64,000 nt of DNA, taken from NCBI GenBank assembly GCA_017443025.1, contig JAFSPG010000018.1:248001-312000 (forward strand), in the 5' to 3' direction. The position numbers were made by a program, and so were the translations under genes. Positions 51,812-64,000 of this stretch are shown here, piece by piece. Source of the DNA: Bacteroidales bacterium. GTDB lineage: Bacteria; Bacteroidota; Bacteroidia; Bacteroidales; UBA932. Under the pieces are notes generated by a model that was not told the DNA's origin, made no database searches, and worked only from the letters and a program-made list of their open reading frames with translations. Numbering within the stretch: the stretch's first letter is position 1; the number at the start of each line of letters is the position of its first letter.

Positions 51812-54800
51812 TTATGCTTGTTTTTCCAATTTTTTCAGCGCAGAGAAGGCTTCTGACGTCGAATTAATGTTTCTTGATATCACCCTGAGCCTCGAATCAG
51901 TATTCTTGAGTTCGAATACCTTTTCGTTAAGGCTTAAAAGCTTCAGAATCCCTGAAAATACCTCGCTTCTGTAATATGACGACATCTGGTTTGCAATGAA
52001 GAACGCTATCAGTATGCCGTTCTTTATTATGATTTTTTCAAAGCCGAGCTTTTCTCCAAGGTGCCTTATCCTCACTATATCCATAAGATTTGATACCTCT
52101 TGAGGCAAGGGGCCGAATCTGTCTTCCAGGCGTTTTGCGAGATTATCCAGGTCACTGTCCCTAACGGCTGAATCGAGTTCCTTGTAAATTCTGATTTTCT
52201 CGGCGGAAATATCTATGTAATCATCAGGGATATGCGCCGGCTGGTCGGTTTCAATCGTACAGTCTTCGATAAATGACTCCTTGTCGCGATGCACCGTAAT
52301 ACCTGTTTCGAGCCCAAGTTCTTCCATCGCTTCTGAAAGAATCTTCTGGTAGGTTTCATAACCCATGTCGGAGATGAAACCGCTTTGCTCGGCTCCAAGA
52401 AGGTTACCGGCACCACGGATATCCAGATCCTGCATTGCTATATTGAATCCACTTCCGAGGTCGGAAAATTCTTCTATGGCCTTAAGACGGCGGCGGGCAT
52501 CGTCGGTAAGGGTTGTAAGCGGCGGCACAATCAGATAGCAGAATGCCCTTCTGTTCGATCGTCCTACCCTGCCTCGAAGCTGGTGAAGATCGCTCAGACC
52601 GAAATTCTGAGCCTGGTTTATGATGATGGTATTGGCGTTCGGGATATCAAGTCCGTTTTCAACTATCGTAGTGCAGAGCAGAAGGTCATAGTCGCCGCGC
52701 ATGAAATCCAGCATCTTGTTTTCAAGAGTCCTGGCTTCCATCTGCCCGTGTGCTACGCATATCTTCATATCCGGTACCAGACGGTGGAGTATATCTTCAA
52801 TCGCGGGAAGTTCCTCAACCTTGTTATGAAGGAAAAATATCTGACCGCCCCGGCCCAGCTCGTAGTTCAGGATATTCCGTATTTCCTCTCCGTCGAAAAG
52901 AATTATTTCAGTCTGTGTTGGTATCCTGTTCGGCGGGGCTGTATTTATAATCGAAAGGTCTCTTGCTCCGAGCAGAGAGAATTGAAGGGTACGTGGAATT
53001 GGAGTAGCCGTGAGAGTAAGGGTATCTACAGTTACTTTCATCTCACGGATTTTTTCCTTGGCACTAACTCCGAACTTCTGTTCCTCATCAATTATCAGTA
53101 AGCCTAAATCCTTGAATTCAAAGTCTTTGGATAGTATCTTATGGGTACCGATAAGAATGTCGATTTTTCCTGCTTTGAGGTCCTGCTTGATTGCGCTTAT
53201 TTCCTTTGCTGAACGAAGCCGGCTTACATAGTCTACGCGGCAGGGAAGATTTTCCAGTCTTGATTCGAAAGTCTTGAAATGCTGAAGAGCAAGTATGGTG
53301 GTCGGGACAAGCAGGGCTACCTGCTTGCTGTCGGCGGCAGCTTTGAAGGCCGCGCGGATGGCTATTTCTGTCTTTCCGAAACCTACATCTCCGCAGATAA
53401 GCCTGTCCATCGGACTCTTGTCCTCCATATCCCGCTTGACGGCTATGGTTGCCGACTGCTGGTCGGGGGTATCCTCATACATGAAGGATGATTCCAATTC
53501 TTCCTGAAGGTAGGTATCGGCCGAATATGCGAAGCCCGCGGTAGATTTGCGCTTTGCGTAGAGTTTTATCAGATCCTTGGCTATATCCTTTACCTTCGAT
53601 TTGGCAGCAGTTTTAAGGTTCTGCCATGTCTTAGAGCCAAGCTTGTGTATTTTAGGAGGTAGAGAATCCTTTGATTTATAACGGCTTATCTTATGAAGGG
53701 CGTGAACGGAAACAAAGACCACATCTCCGTCCTTATACATCAGTTTGACCACCTCGTGCATCCTTCCCTTGTCGTCTTTCATCCTCACAAGTCCGCCGAA
53801 GATACCGACTCCATGGTCGATATGGACTATATAATCGCCGATATTGAAAGAGTTCAGGTCGTTGAGGGTAAGTTGCTCACTCTTATCCACAGTCCGGCGT
53901 ATGACAGCCCTGTGATATCTGTCAAAAATTTCATGGTCGGAATACAGACAGACCTTGCTTTCCGTATCTATAAAACCATTATGGAAATTCTTTCCGGAAA
54001 TGAAATCGGGAAACAAGCCACTGTTTGCGGCTAAAATATCCCTTATCCTGTCGAGCTGCGACTGCTTCTCCCCTACTATATAAACTTTAAATCCGTTTTC
54101 AATTTTCTGACGGATGTCTTCAGTAAGAAGTTCAAAGTTTTTATTAAATACCGGCTGAGGTGAAATATAGAATTTAACGGGTTCTGATGATGTTTTCCCG
54201 TTAATAGGAACATCAAGGAAAACTCTTTTGTATTTAGCGGTTTCCTTGAAAAAATCCCTTTCCTTATACATATCGGCCGAATCGGCCCAGATAAGGGAAT
54301 CAGGGGGTAGAAGAGAAAAAAAACTGTTGCTTACGCTATCGTCAGCCAAATCCGGATAAATATCAGCTGAATTTGTTTCTTCCTTTGATAACTGTGTGTT
54401 ACAGTCGAAGATATGTATTTTCTCTATTTCGTTTCCAAACAGGGATATTCTGAATGGATTGTTATATGAATAGGAAAAAATATCTATGACTGAACCGCGT
54501 AATGCAAACTGTCCGGGGGATGATACGAAATCTGCTTTTTCGAATCCTATCTTTCCAAGTTCCTCCCTGAGTAAATCATATTTTATTTCTTCACCTTTTT
54601 TTAACCGGAGTATAGAATCACTTACATTCTTTTTTGCAGGTACTCCTTCCTCGAGGGCTTCCGGATAGGATACGAATATGAGTCTTTCATCATCTGCCGG
54701 ATTATATGAAACCAGCTTTCCTATGGATGATGTACGCTGGACGGATATAGATGCTTTATAATTACTCTTCTCTATGTTTTTACCGGAATCAGGAATAAAG

Positions 54801-55015
54801 AATACTTTATCTCCCGGAATCAGTTGATATAAATCAGATGCACAGTATTCGGCGGATTCCCTGGTAGGTAGTATCACAAGATGTATTCCTTTATCAGCAC
54901 ATTCCGACAAGACGAACCATCGGGCCGACAGATAAAGACCACTGCAATAACTTTCCTCCTGGCTGGCGAGCAGATCTTTCAGTATATCGGTATTTGATAT
55001 CTTTATTTCGTTCAT
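51812..55015 (-). CDS. mfd: Transcription-repair coupling factor
   Basis: A 1067-residue Mfd, which removes RNA polymerase stalled at lesions and recruits UvrA. The N-terminal UvrB-like region covers about 20-340. The CarD/RID polymerase-binding domain has GDYIVHIDHGVGIFGG (about 390-405). The superfamily 2 motor has LICGDVGFGKTEIAIRAA (Walker A), LIIDEEQKFG and TATPIPRTLQ. A TRCF C-terminal domain with LAKRLEDRFGPLPQEVSNL follows. The predicted leader from a -7 box at 55126-55133 is about 105 bases. Codons here look more A/T-rich than in most of the window. Confidence 0.97.
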   Translation of the reverse strand: MNEIKISNTDILKDLLASQEESYCSGLYLSARWFVLSECADKGIHLVILPTRESAEYCASDLYQLIPGDKVFFIPDSGKNIEKSNYKASISVQRTSSIGKLVSYNPADDERLIFVSYPEALEEGVPAKKNVSDSILRLKKGEEIKYDLLREELGKIGFEKADFVSSPGQFALRGSVIDIFSYSYNNPFRISLFGNEIEKIHIFDCNTQLSKEETNSADIYPDLADDSVSNSFFSLLPPDSLIWADSADMYKERDFFKETAKYKRVFLDVPINGKTSSEPVKFYISPQPVFNKNFELLTEDIRQKIENGFKVYIVGEKQSQLDRIRDILAANSGLFPDFISGKNFHNGFIDTESKVCLYSDHEIFDRYHRAVIRRTVDKSEQLTLNDLNSFNIGDYIVHIDHGVGIFGGLVRMKDDKGRMHEVVKLMYKDGDVVFVSVHALHKISRYKSKDSLPPKIHKLGSKTWQNLKTAAKSKVKDIAKDLIKLYAKRKSTAGFAYSADTYLQEELESSFMYEDTPDQQSATIAVKRDMEDKSPMDRLICGDVGFGKTEIAIRAAFKAAADSKQVALLVPTTILALQHFKTFESRLENLPCRVDYVSRLRSAKEISAIKQDLKAGKIDILIGTHKILSKDFEFKDLGLLIIDEEQKFGVSAKEKIREMKVTVDTLTLTATPIPRTLQFSLLGARDLSIINTAPPNRIPTQTEIILFDGEEIRNILNYELGRGGQIFFLHNKVEELPAIEDILHRLVPDMKICVAHGQMEARTLENKMLDFMRGDYDLLLCTTIVENGLDIPNANTIIINQAQNFGLSDLHQLRGRVGRSNRRAFCYLIVPPLTTLTDDARRRLKAIEEFSDLGSGFNIAMQDLDIRGAGNLLGAEQSGFISDMGYETYQKILSEAMEELGLETGITVHRDKESFIEDCTIETDQPAHIPDDYIDISAEKIRIYKELDSAVRDSDLDNLAKRLEDRFGPLPQEVSNLMDIVRIRHLGEKLGFEKIIIKNGILIAFFIANQMSSYYRSEVFSGILKLLSLNEKVFELKNTDSRLRVISRNINSTSEAFSALKKLEKQA

Positions 55016-55125
55016 CTTATACCCGATGGATGTTTATAAGTCTGTTTAAACCCTGTTGATAAATAATGATAAGTAAATTTTCAAAAGCGGATAATTTTTA
55101 GAATCCAAAACTGATTTTTGAAATG

Positions 55126-55133
55126 CAAATTTA
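55126..55133 (-). promoter_or_regulatory. Possible -7 box of mfd
   Basis: The minus strand reads TAAATTTG, a perfect TAnnTTTG, but 110 bases from the ATG and without a clear -33 TTG. Chance matches are likely in such AT-rich DNA. Confidence 0.33.
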
Positions 55134-55275
55134 TTCCAAATTTTTTATCCTTAATTTTTACAACCGGTAATAAACAATTAAAAATATATCTAAATTATTA
55201 ATATTTAATTATTTGTATATACTTATCAACATATTGACATCTCTATATCCATTACCTAAATACAATAAATTTATA

Positions 55276-55283
55276 TATATTTG
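55276..55283 (+). promoter_or_regulatory. Predicted -7 box of ruvB
   Basis: TATATTTG matches TAnnTTTG, 19 bases before the ruvB ATG. No -33 TTG lies at the usual distance. Confidence 0.42.
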
Positions 55284-55302
55284 TAATGGTAATTGATTTG
55301 AT

Positions 55303-56355
55303 ATGTCCGATTCGTTCAACCCTTACGAAACAGCAGGAGACAAAGATAAGGATTTAGAGGGAATTATCCGTCCTCAGGAACTGGAAGATTTCACAGGTCA
55401 GACAAAGATTGTTTCCAACCTTAAAATATTCATTGAAGCTGCCAAGATGCGGGGTGAATCCCTGGATCATGTATTGTTTCACGGCCCTCCCGGTCTTGGT
55501 AAGACTACCCTCGCCCATATCATAGCAAATGAATTAGGTTCCAATATAAAGATAACCTCCGGACCGGTTCTGGATAAACCCGGCGACCTTGCCGGACTTC
55601 TCACTTCACTTGAAAGCGGTGACGTCTTGTTTATAGATGAAATTCACAGGCTCTCCCCTGAGGTTGAGGAATATCTTTATTCAGCAATGGAAGATTTCGT
55701 GATAGATATAATGATAGATAAAGGCCCTGGAGCCAGATCTGTCAGGATTGATTTATCACCTTTTACCCTCGTGGGAGCAACTACCCGCAGCGGACTTTTG
55801 ACTGCACCTCTTCGCGCTCGTTTCGGAATAACCTGCGCGCTCGAGTATTATGGAACTCCCGAGCTTATTAAAATTATTAAAAGGAGTGCAAATATACTCA
55901 AGGTTGAAATAGATGATGAAGCTGCGAGTGAAATAGCTCTCCGCAGCCGTGGTACCCCTAGAATTGCAAATGCGTTATTACGCAGGGTCAGGGATTTTGC
56001 TCAGGTCAAGGGTAACGGCCGTATAGAAATGGATATAGCAAAAATTGCCCTGGATGCCCTGAATATAGATAAACTTGGACTGGATATGATTGACAACAAA
56101 ATATTACATACAATCATAACAAAGTTCAAGGGTGGCCCGGTAGGTATAAATACTATTGCAACTGCAGTAGGCGAAGAGGCCGGAACAATCGAGGAGGTAT
56201 ATGAGCCATTCCTTATCATGAACGGATTTATCCAGCGCACACCGAGAGGAAGGATAGCGACGGATTTATCTTACCGTCATCTTGGATTGGACAGATATTT
56301 ATCTTCCAGAAACAGCAATGATGGTCTGGAAGTAATAGAAAATTCACTCTTTTAA
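55303..56355 (+). CDS. ruvB: Holliday junction helicase RuvB
   Basis: A 350-residue AAA+ motor that drives branch migration with RuvA. Seen: [21 protein letters not shown], Walker [15 protein letters not shown], Walker [17 protein letters not shown], sensor [19 protein letters not shown], the sensor-2 Arg in [21 protein letters not shown] and a C-terminal winged helix with [23 protein letters not shown] at 55303 with a Bacteroidota -7 box 19 bases upstream. ruvA is 8 kb away on the other strand, so the genes are not an operon here. Confidence 0.97.
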
Positions 56356-61185: not shown

Positions 61186-61330
61186 TTTTCGGGCCTTTTA
61201 TTATCTCTCACTTTTTAAATAATTGATATATAATAAGTTAGTATTATAAATATTTGATTTTAAGTCTGATTTTCGGTATTTTCGCCCCTTTTTTGGCTGT
61301 TTTTGAGAGTTTTTTATGGGGCATATTTAC

Positions 61331-61338
61331 TATCTTTG
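61331..61338 (+). promoter_or_regulatory. Predicted -7 box of ybeY-mnmG
   Basis: TATCTTTG, a perfect TAnnTTTG, 20 bases before the ybeY ATG at 61359. It shows that the longer open frame beginning at 61254 cannot be the true start. Confidence 0.52.
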
Positions 61339-61358
61339 CGCATGAAAAATACCATCCT

Positions 61359-61790
61359 ATGGTCAACTATTTTTTCGAAGATACTGACTTTGTTTTCAAA
61401 GGTTGCAGGGAATGTAACGCCTGGCTGAAAGCCGTCGCCGAGTCTGAAATCAAGAAACTCGGGGCTGTCAATATCATATTCTGTTCAGACAATTACATAC
61501 TTGACATCAATCAGAAGTATCTTCAGCACGACTATTTTACCGATATCATCACCTTCGACTATTGCGAGGGCAAGGTTCTTTCCGGTGATTTATTCATCAG
61601 CGTCGATTCTGTCAGGGAGAATTCGGTAACATATAAAACGGAGTTTTCTCAGGAACTTCTGAGGGTAATAGTCCACGGACTTCTTCATCTTATCGGTTAC
61701 GACGATCATAGCCCCGAGGAGCAGAAGCAGATGCGCACCAAGGAAAATTACTATCTTTCTTTCAGGGAACAGCTGTTTCCAGCAAGGTAA
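61359..61790 (+). CDS. ybeY: rRNA maturation endoribonuclease YbeY
   Basis: A 143-residue zinc-dependent endoribonuclease needed for 16S rRNA 3' processing. The metal site is HGLLHLIGYDDH (three His), preceded by DYFTDIITFDY and GDLFISVDSVREN. The length fits the family when started at the ATG at 61359; the frame stays open upstream but only as an unlikely hydrophobic leader that would precede the promoter. mnmG starts three bases after the stop. Confidence 0.94.
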   Translation: MVNYFFEDTDFVFKGCRECNAWLKAVAESEIKKLGAVNIIFCSDNYILDINQKYLQHDYFTDIITFDYCEGKVLSGDLFISVDSVRENSVTYKTEFSQELLRVIVHGLLHLIGYDDHSPEEQKQMRTKENYYLSFREQLFPAR

Positions 61791-61793
61791 AAC

Positions 61794-63782
61794 GTGGAAC
61801 GTATTTTCGACATCATAGTTGTTGGCGGCGGACACGCCGGTTGCGAGGCTGCCATGGCTGCTTCGAGAATGGGCTCGTCTGTCCTTCTTATTTCGATGGA
61901 CCTTGACTCCTTTGCAAGGATGTCCTGCAATCCCTCGATAGGTGGAATTGCAAAGGGGCAGATTGTCCGTGAAGTCGACGCACTTGGCGGATGTACCGGA
62001 ATCATCACCGATTACTCCACACTTCAATTTCGCATGCTCAACCGGTCAAAAGGTCCGGCAATGTGGAGTCCTCGCGCCCAATGCGACAAAAAGGCTTTTT
62101 CCGCCAACTGGAGGAAAATCCTTGAAAGTAATTGTAAATTAAGCATTTATGCGGATTTAGCGACTGAATTCCTCTTTGAGAATCAAAAAATTGCGGGCGT
62201 TCGTACGTTAACCGGTGCAATTTTTAAGTCTCAGGCAGTAATTTTAACCGCCGGAACCTTCCTTTCCGGAAAACTTTTCATAGGTCGGACTCAGTTCGAA
62301 GGTGGACGCATCGGAGAAAAATCTTCTTATGGTCTGACCGAACAACTTGTCGCTGCCGGCATTCCGTCTTACAGGATGAAGACCGGAACACCCCCGAGGA
62401 TAGATATACGTTCGGTTGATCTTTCCAAGTCCATTATTCAGAAGGGAGACGAGAATCCTTCCAAATTTTCATATCTGCCCTTCCTGTCGCATATCCAGAG
62501 GGACAAGAATCAGATGGACTGCTATATCTTTCATACAAACGAGCAGGTGCATGATGCTCTGAGAGAGGGATTTAAGGATTCACCCCTCTTTACCGGGCTT
62601 ATTCACGGCCGCGGCCCGAGATATTGCCCGAGCATTGAGGATAAACTTCATACTTTTGCCGACAAGGATTCTCACCAGCTTTTCCTTGAGCCGGAAGGCA
62701 GAAATACGCACGAATATTATCTGCAGGGCTTTTCTTCCTCTCTTCCGCTTGATATTCAGGTCAATGCACTCCGTCAGATTCCGGGATTCTCCAACGTATC
62801 AATACTCAAGCCTGCCTATGCTGTTGAGTATGATTATTTTGACCCGGTGTATCTGAAGGCTTCCCTCGAATCGAAAGTGGTCGAAAATCTCTTCCTTGCC
62901 GGCCAGGTCAACGGAACAACAGGCTATGAAGAAGCTGCTGCGCAGGGTCTTATAGCCGGGATTAACGCTCATCTCAAGATTTCCGGCAGGGAGCCTTTTG
63001 TTCTTTCCCGCGACCAGGCTTACATAGGCGTGCTCATAGACGATCTTATAACTAAGGGTGTCGATGAGCCATATCGAATGTTTACTTCCAGGGCAGAGTA
63101 CAGAATACTCTTGCGGCAGGATAACGCGGACCTTCGCCTTACCGAACTTTCTTATAAAATCGGCCTTGCATCAGCCTTTAGGCGTGATTACACTCTTAAG
63201 AAGTATGAGCAGGCCGCCCAGCTTTCGGATGCTGTCTCCCAGACGAAAGTTAAGCCAGCCGAGGCAAACGACTACCTTTCTTCAATATCAAGTGCTGAAA
63301 TTGAAGACGGCAAACGTCTCGCTGAACTTATTGCTCGTCCCGACGTAAAATTGGCGGATTTTTTAAATTCTGTTCCACGTGGAACAAAATTCGACAAACT
63401 CAGAGAGATTCCCAAAATCGAAACGACTATCGACCTCGGCGTGGATTATTTCCCCTGTGAGGTGAAGTTTATTGCAATAGATGAAAGTCCCGACTCATCC
63501 TTGCTTGAAAGATTCCACGTGGAACAAGTTCAGGATAATGTTGAGATCAACCTCAAATATTCCGGATATATAGAACGCGAGAAAATCCTGGCGGCAAAGA
63601 TGCACAGGCTGGAGCATATAGCTATCCCCGAGGATTATGACTTTGACAGAATAAGCGGACTCTCGATAGAGTGCCGTCAGAAATTAAAAAGATACCGCCC
63701 GGCCACAATCGGTCAGGCGTCACGTATCTCGGGCGTATCTCCCTCGGATATTTCTGTTCTGCTGATTTTCTTCAACAGATAG
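61794..63782 (+). CDS. mnmG: tRNA uridine 5-carboxymethylaminomethyl modification enzyme MnmG (GidA)
   Basis: A 662-residue flavoprotein that with MnmE modifies the wobble uridine. Starts with a GTG three bases after ybeY. FAD site [20 protein letters not shown]; the GidA signature pieces [23 protein letters not shown] and [51 protein letters not shown]. The C-terminal MnmE-binding helical domain covers about 550-662. It is somewhat longer than E. coli MnmG (629). Two parS-like palindromes lie in its 3' third, and a single half-site overlaps the start codon. No mnmE in the window. Confidence 0.96.
63371..63386. promoter_or_regulatory. parS site (ParB binding), perfect consensus
   Basis: TGTTCCACGTGGAACA is a perfect 16-bp palindrome matching the bacterial parS consensus TGTTNCACGTGNAACA at every fixed base. 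It lies inside mnmG and encodes SVPRGT in that frame. ParB is known to nucleate on such sites near the origin. Confidence 0.85.
63511..63526. promoter_or_regulatory. Second parS-like site
   Basis: GATTCCACGTGGAACA matches 14 of 16 parS bases, with the inner 13 of the palindrome intact, 140 bases after the first site. In this copy the mnmG frame is shifted: it encodes part of FHVEQ, so the protein sequence does not explain the likeness. Confidence 0.75.
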
Positions 63783-63785
63783 TCT

Positions 63786-64000
63786 TTACAGTCGTTTAAG
63801 GGCTTCTTTTATCAGAATTTCAACCTTGGCGTCCGGAGTCTTTTTCAGAATCTCCGGCAGCACCTTATTGATATTGGCCTTGCTGAATCCAAGCATTACG
63901 AGTGCGGTAGAGGCTTCGTCTATGATGGAAGGGTCAGATACTCCATAACTTACGGGCGTTGAGTCCACTCCCCCGCCTTTGACAATCTTGTCTTTCAGTT
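63786..64000 (-). CDS. ruvA: Holliday junction protein RuvA, 3' end
   Basis: The last 71 codons of ruvA; the gene starts to the right of the window. The visible part starts with LKDKIVKGGGVDSTPV, the end of the second domain and linker, and continues with the three-helix domain III that touches RuvB (DEASTALVMLGFSKANINKVLPEILKK). An internal GTG at 63968 is not the start. It converges on mnmG with three bases between the stops and no terminator. Confidence 0.9.
   Translation of the reverse strand, partial: LKDKIVKGGGVDSTPVSYGVSDPSIIDEASTALVMLGFSKANINKVLPEILKKTPDAKVEILIKEALKRL

Follow-up and report, generated by a model that had tools for sequence, protein, structure and literature searches.

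The window analyzed here is a stretch of 64,000 nucleotides of a Bacteroidales contig, and near its end it encodes the tRNA-modifying enzyme MnmG (GidA) on the forward strand at 61794-63782 (Pfam GIDA, E 2e-152; SAM_GIDA_C, 1e-26), for which the ORF tool lists a GTG start codon. Two parS-like palindromes lie inside this gene. Site 1, TGTTCCACGTGGAACA at 63371-63386, is a perfect palindrome of the parS type and is read as V-P-R-G-T, while site 2, GATTCCACGTGGAACA at 63511-63526, is read as F-H-V-E-Q. Gene offsets of 1577 and 1717 put the two sites 140 bp apart and in different reading frames, which confirms, in coordinates and in frames, the pair that an earlier note on this DNA had described. 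Mismatches were counted against the parS consensus TGTTNCACGTGNAACA, a 16-bp palindrome: site 1 has none, in agreement with the perfect fit claimed by the note, and site 2 has two, both at the outer left bases, so that its right half-site is perfect. Upstream in the window, mfd (51812-55015, reverse strand; NCBIfam TIGR00580 above cut-off) and ruvB (55303-56355, forward strand; TIGR00635 and NF000868 above cut-off) are transcribed away from a shared intergenic gap.

The genome from which the window comes comprises 1,658,720 bases (1.66 Mb) in 19 contigs and is 93.5% complete. Site 1 is the sole exact parS match in all of these bases. The degenerate parS pattern occurs exactly at one place, with two mismatches at two places and with three mismatches at 22 places, and sites 1 and 2 are two among the three best places (up to two mismatches) in the genome. 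Simple arithmetic under uniform placement gives a chance of about 3e-4 that one of the two further places falls within 140 bp of the first. When the window alone was considered, 14 of 100 shuffles also reached at least three matches at up to three mismatches, and this coarse count is not significant; what is significant is that one match is exact and that the two sites lie so close together. The reversed pattern, which has the same composition, gave no exact match in any row of the surveys of 148 and 296 genomes, in which the true pattern was found exactly in 48 and 36 genomes, respectively. At two mismatches this control is not clean, with matches in 21 of the 39 genomes of the window's family. 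Across 80 related loci (989,349 bases), 140 matches with up to one mismatch were found, as against none for each of 60 palindromes built from shuffled half-sites. In each of the 29 genomes with at least two exact copies, all copies share a contig and span no more than about 2.03 kb. The earlier note had asked if such 16-mers are scattered over the genome; the 16-mer is instead unique in the window's genome and clustered wherever it is present in several exact copies.

The 80 related loci were taken from genome contigs whose titles mostly name Bacteroidales or Bacteroidia, with some Candidatus Cryptobacteroides, and family-level taxonomy was inferred. In 78 of the 80, the palindrome (up to two mismatches) lies within mnmG at offset 1565-1580 and in a single common frame. 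The internal site is absent in L025 and L061, each of which carries an exact copy directly after the gene, and L079 has an extra palindrome at mnmG offset 1729 in another frame. The linker of the L025 protein, whose gene has its exact palindrome immediately on the 3' side, reads CHSGRLSCHSERSEGIF. An alignment of the window with four near relatives shows the entire site 1 palindrome to be invariant between variable flanks. At the protein level VPRGT forms a fixed island in a MnmG linker that is variable elsewhere, both in its residues and in its length, the stretch after it ranging from 6 to 95 residues.

Codon usage at site 1 was counted after the relatives had been thinned to less than 90% identity, which kept 74 of the 80. 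Four codons are essentially fixed (GTT 72/72, CCA 72/73, CGT 67/68 and GGA 72/73), that is, to 98.5-100%, as compared with top-codon medians of 35-46% in other conserved columns (median shares of 0.43, 0.46, 0.35 and 0.42 for V, P, R and G; 0.35-0.46 with T included). The fifth codon is ACA in 46 of 72; its third position, which is free to vary, forms the outer edge of the palindrome. A scan for excess codon identity along mnmG gave two strong peaks, one at site 1 and one at residues ~106-158. Four residues of the peptide, V, P, G and T, do not vary among 27 aligned proteins of the family, as would be expected if MnmG needed VPRGT and the palindrome were its by-product. We regard this explanation as exceedingly improbable, since the codons are fixed far beyond those of other conserved residues, none of the 29 MnmGs examined from other families (the loci retrieved among 80 genomes) has the peptide, and many relatives carry the same palindrome outside mnmG, some of them with VPRGT in the unrelated enzymes SufS and FolK. 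Within the window's genus, 29 MnmGs, at least eight of which repeat loci of the 80-relative set, carry VP(R/H/C)GT in 26 cases, VPRRT in two and neither in one. Selection of site 1 as DNA, rather than as a peptide, is thus supported by its codons.

Site 2 behaves differently. Both its DNA and its peptide are absent in the four nearest relatives aligned (L017-L020). The suggestion in the earlier note that the palindromes are kept for a reason at the DNA level, to be seen in the synonymous choices of related mnmG genes, therefore holds for site 1, with its fixed codons and its presence in 78 of 80 relatives, and fails for site 2, which is not conserved. Site 2 is probably a secondary parS of this lineage, for which we put it forward as a candidate. 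According to the title of PMC10419367, ParB of Pseudomonas aeruginosa also binds half-parS sites, which lends slight support to such a role.

The association of the palindrome with mnmG extends well beyond these relatives. The order and phylum surveys overlap by few genomes; no exact copy occurs in 100 of the 148 order genomes or in 260 of the 296 phylum genomes, and 83 genomes have exact matches. Of these, 80 were searched for mnmG, and the gene was found in every one. In 73 of the 80, an exact copy falls in the range from -700 to +2700 relative to the mnmG start, so that across the phylum many genomes have their parS locus in the neighborhood of mnmG. Counted from the same start, the 111 exact sites fall mainly at 1500-1980 (58 sites, near the end of mnmG, positions before and after the stop codon being counted together) and within 700 bp upstream (35 sites), with eight at 1980-2700 and ten elsewhere. 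In the seven exceptional genomes, the palindrome is on another contig in three, ~18 and 120 kb away in two, and 0.9 and 3.4 kb upstream in two. Variant forms in genomes that have no exact copy were examined within the window's family, where a form with up to one mismatch is present in 30 of 39 genomes and one with up to two mismatches in 35 of 39 (reversed control at up to two mismatches, 21 of 39). The position at mnmG codons 527-531 is found, among the 80 order and phylum genomes with mnmG, in the window only, and otherwise in the sets of relatives and genus members; placement at codon 527 seems to be particular to the window's group.

Sites outside mnmG were also frequent. The 80 related loci hold 72 such sites with up to one mismatch, of which 43 lie within 700 bp after the gene, 27 at 0.7-4 kb after it and two, both in L024, elsewhere. 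Open frames of 409-433 codons contain 21 of the 27 more distant sites. The one protein of this type that was examined, from L042, is an aminotransferase class V enzyme, and a reading of its motifs suggests that it is SufS. The SufS-type gene encodes GVP(R/H/C)(G/E/R)(T/N) in 22 of the 37 loci that have such a gene. In L017, L021, L042 and others, the palindromes of the SufS-type gene lie ~1.3-2.7 kb after mnmG and are read as a VPRGT-type peptide, as in MnmG. In eight further cases (L026, L045, L047, L052, L062, L069, L086 and L093) a site ~2.9-3.4 kb after mnmG falls in a frame of 157-184 codons and is read as VP(R/Q/C)GT; the gene of L047, the sole one of these examined, encodes HPPK (FolK). 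Forms with two mismatches are read as FPVE in L055, L085 and L090, and the frame in L055 is SufE. The sufS gene of the window's own genome (C17:312386-313675) contains no parS-like site. VPRGT dominates among the peptides read from the three frames of the palindrome, and the C-S-T-W-N frame was seen in just two opposite-strand frames of 134-146 codons (L050 and L080).

The distribution of substitutions bears on a different kind of DNA-level explanation, in which a hairpin of a 6-bp stem and a 4-base loop is selected in mRNA or single-stranded DNA and there is no duplex binding site. The 111 variants with one or two mismatches change mainly at bases 1, 16, 7 and 10, followed by 8 and 9, so that the arms are the most conserved part, and some sites after mnmG differ at the middle bases alone; both patterns would suit a stem with a free loop. 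Within mnmG, however, the four middle bases are kept in 75-77 of 78 sites, whereas the outer pair is often broken (T/T in 16 and A/A in 5 of 78). Moreover, the palindromes cluster near the origin whatever gene they lie in, which an mRNA hairpin does not predict, and we consider the hairpin explanation very improbable. The intactness of half-sites was set aside as evidence for ParB: 107 of the 111 variants keep one half, the 79 with a single mismatch do so by construction, and the informative fraction is 28 of the 32 with two mismatches.

Both partners of a parS site are encoded in the genome, as the earlier note had recommended checking. A single ParB_N gene is present, its product carries ParB_N and HTH_ParB domains, and parA is adjacent to it. 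The parA-parB pair (contig C2:22359-24087 of the window's genome) does not share a contig with mnmG; its neighbor is a long gene for a helicase, priA by our reading. The C-terminal dimer domain of ParB scores just under the Pfam cut-off. Among NCBIfam models parB_part is above its cut-off, and the top-scoring model, nucleoid_noc, is below its own (232.5 versus 315). This score, together with best PDB matches that are Noc structures and with the kinship of Noc to ParB and the resemblance of their sites, raises the question of another protein reading the palindrome, either a Noc-like occlusion factor or a transcription regulator. When the HTH of the protein was aligned to solved relatives, Arg and Gly were found at positions 173 and 201 (numbering from our own alignment). 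ParB has Arg173 and Gly201, and Noc has Gln and Arg at the same positions, in the excerpted text of PMC7383237; the protein encoded here thus has the ParB-type residues and lacks those of the Gln173/Arg201 type. Noc sites are described as scattered over the chromosome in the part of PMC4331003 that was available, unlike the clustered sites found here, and only one ParB_N gene was matched in the genome. A reader other than ParB is accordingly a highly unlikely alternative.

The earlier note had further suggested that this part of the chromosome is origin-proximal. Skew along the window's own contig (C17) shows no flip and was rejected as proof of an origin. dnaA was rejected as a marker: it was not found in the 93.5% complete genome, and in the relative G443 it lies ~610 kb from the site, that is, away from the origin. 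Since the genome's own skew does not flip, the case for origin proximity comes from relatives and from the mfd-ruvB gap. G443, a member of the window's family assembled as one contig of 2,229,011 bases, was sampled in 39 windows for third-position skew. The skew is below zero in 17 of the 18 windows between -1087 and -38 kb of its site, slightly above zero at -18 kb, and above zero in 17 of the 20 windows between +2 and +1082 kb, which places the flip at ~20-40 kb or less from the site. Over a contiguous 120 kb, the cumulative skew minimum is at 671.6-672.0 kb, at the gap between divergent mfd and ruvB genes of this genome (671,993-672,403); the parS-like site of the G443 mnmG is ~15 kb away. 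Plain GC skew also flips at the sites of G344 (11/11 windows negative, then 7/8 positive) and G203 (7/9 negative, then 10/10 positive), and shows no clear flip at the site of G280.

The equivalent gap in the window lies at 55016-55302 and is 79% AT, a value matched by just 0.008% of equal-length windows on the contig. It holds two DnaA-box-like sequences, few for a cluster, of the form TTATCAACA, at 55054-55062 (reverse strand) and 55223-55231 (forward strand), each one mismatch away from TTATCCACA. These are the only two exact TTATCAACA in the 400 of 405 kb of the contig that were scanned, and they are mutually inverted. With this AT content, these boxes and the skew minimum at the homologous gap of G443, the mfd-ruvB gap of the window is a likely candidate for oriC, although that skew minimum has no counterpart on the window's own contig. 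Site 1 is ~8.1-8.4 kb from this candidate. The suggestion of origin proximity is thus supported by the skew of three relatives (G443, G344 and G203) and by the gap, and not by the skew of the genome itself.

The second peak of excess codon identity, region A (62109-62270, residues ~106-158), is a codon-frozen block with the core GAAAGTnnnTGTAAATTAnnnATTTA. Excess codon identity peaks at 0.52, against a gene mean of 0.07 (sd 0.09). The core pattern GAA AGT nnn TGT AAA TTA nnn ATT TA is nearly fixed, with GAA for E111 in 71/71, AAA for K115 in 70/70 and ATT for I118 in 68/68, and TGTAAATTA occurs at this place in 64 of the 80 relatives. It is missing at the aligned place in 29 genes of other families (the 9-mer occurs somewhere in four of those 29 loci) and in some members of the window's genus (e.g., L253). 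The family consensus of region A holds an inverted repeat, GTAAAT-N5-ATTTAC. The core pattern occurs in the window's genome as one exact copy and at seven more places with two mismatches, and a regulon site was rejected on this count. Several other identities were also rejected. For an RNA structure, no consensus fold was obtained (energies of -1.43 sense and 0.0 antisense), and an Rfam search of 61300-64000 gave two sub-threshold matches that look like chance. As for an overlapping gene, every alternative frame is open in at most one of the 80 loci. An oriC was rejected because the skew minimum of G443 is in the mfd-ruvB gap, not in mnmG, and the core was not found in the mnmG of that genome.

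Taken together, we propose that the two palindromes are very probably parS sites, predicted from their sequence, of a chromosomal ParABS system that loads ParB near the origin. The parS identity put forward in the earlier note is supported by the exact match to the 16-bp palindrome, its uniqueness, the codon constraint, and the presence of parA and parB. By analogy with other bacteria, site 1 would be the principal site bound by a ParB dimer, and site 2, with one full half-site retained, would probably be bound as well. ParB with CTP would then load as a clamp and spread across the origin-proximal DNA, and ParA would move the ParB complex such that newly copied origins part first. Since site 1 lies within coding DNA, selection for ParB binding would fix the codons GTT CCA CGT GGA ACN and hence impose VPRGT on a tolerant linker of MnmG. 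On this reading, the same five residues recur in unrelated enzymes because ParB must read the DNA. A bolder version, which we hold tentatively and at somewhat less than even confidence, is that centromere selection wrote VPRGT into at least three unrelated origin-side housekeeping enzymes (MnmG, SufS and FolK), that such sites, carried in tolerant loops of the proteins, come and go in genes and in intergenic DNA, and that 62109-62270 is one more cis-element of this region, not described before.

For a gut and rumen Bacteroidales lineage that is represented here mostly by metagenome assemblies, these results supply a centromere that can be put to the test and a likely origin of replication. They would also offer a clean case of a DNA-binding site that shapes protein sequence, with five residues recurring in unrelated enzymes, and they call for caution when conserved residues of MnmG and SufS are interpreted in this group. 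A parS site at the origin is of a kind already known; among the titles and beginnings of abstracts listed in a literature search, none describes the codon-frozen position in mnmG, the recurrence of VPRGT in SufS and FolK or an origin at mfd-ruvB, and the survey of Livny et al. (2007) may list sites of this kind.

Several known systems can be compared directly. The parS of P. aeruginosa and P. putida is printed as the same 16-mer, TGTTCCACGTGGAACA, in a table of PMC7022226, making it identical to site 1, and an excerpt of PMC4368675 places Pseudomonas parS sites near oriC. The arrangement differs here in that there is one perfect copy, at mnmG codons 527-531 in a conserved frame, and parAB is not adjacent. 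The Noc binding site is likewise a 16-bp palindrome read by a ParB relative, but it has other bases at two specificity positions (PMC7383237, in excerpt) and is scattered over the chromosome (PMC4331003, in excerpt). In gut bacteria, parS clusters and skew, together with Hi-C, were used to place the origins of 12 species, including the Bacteroidales Bacteroides caecimuris and Muribaculum intestinale, and dnaA was reported as not always being at the origin; the available portion of that paper (PMC10197239) makes no mention of mnmG, codon conservation or a recurrent peptide. Finally, gidA, gidB, parA and parB are given among the genes often found near the origin in the excerpted text of PMC2099444. 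Compared with this gene set, the parAB genes of the window's genome are on another contig and dnaA of G443 is ~610 kb from its site. The link between parS and mnmG in many genomes of the phylum, with parAB located elsewhere in the window's genome, is relevant to the question of how an ancestral origin region came apart.
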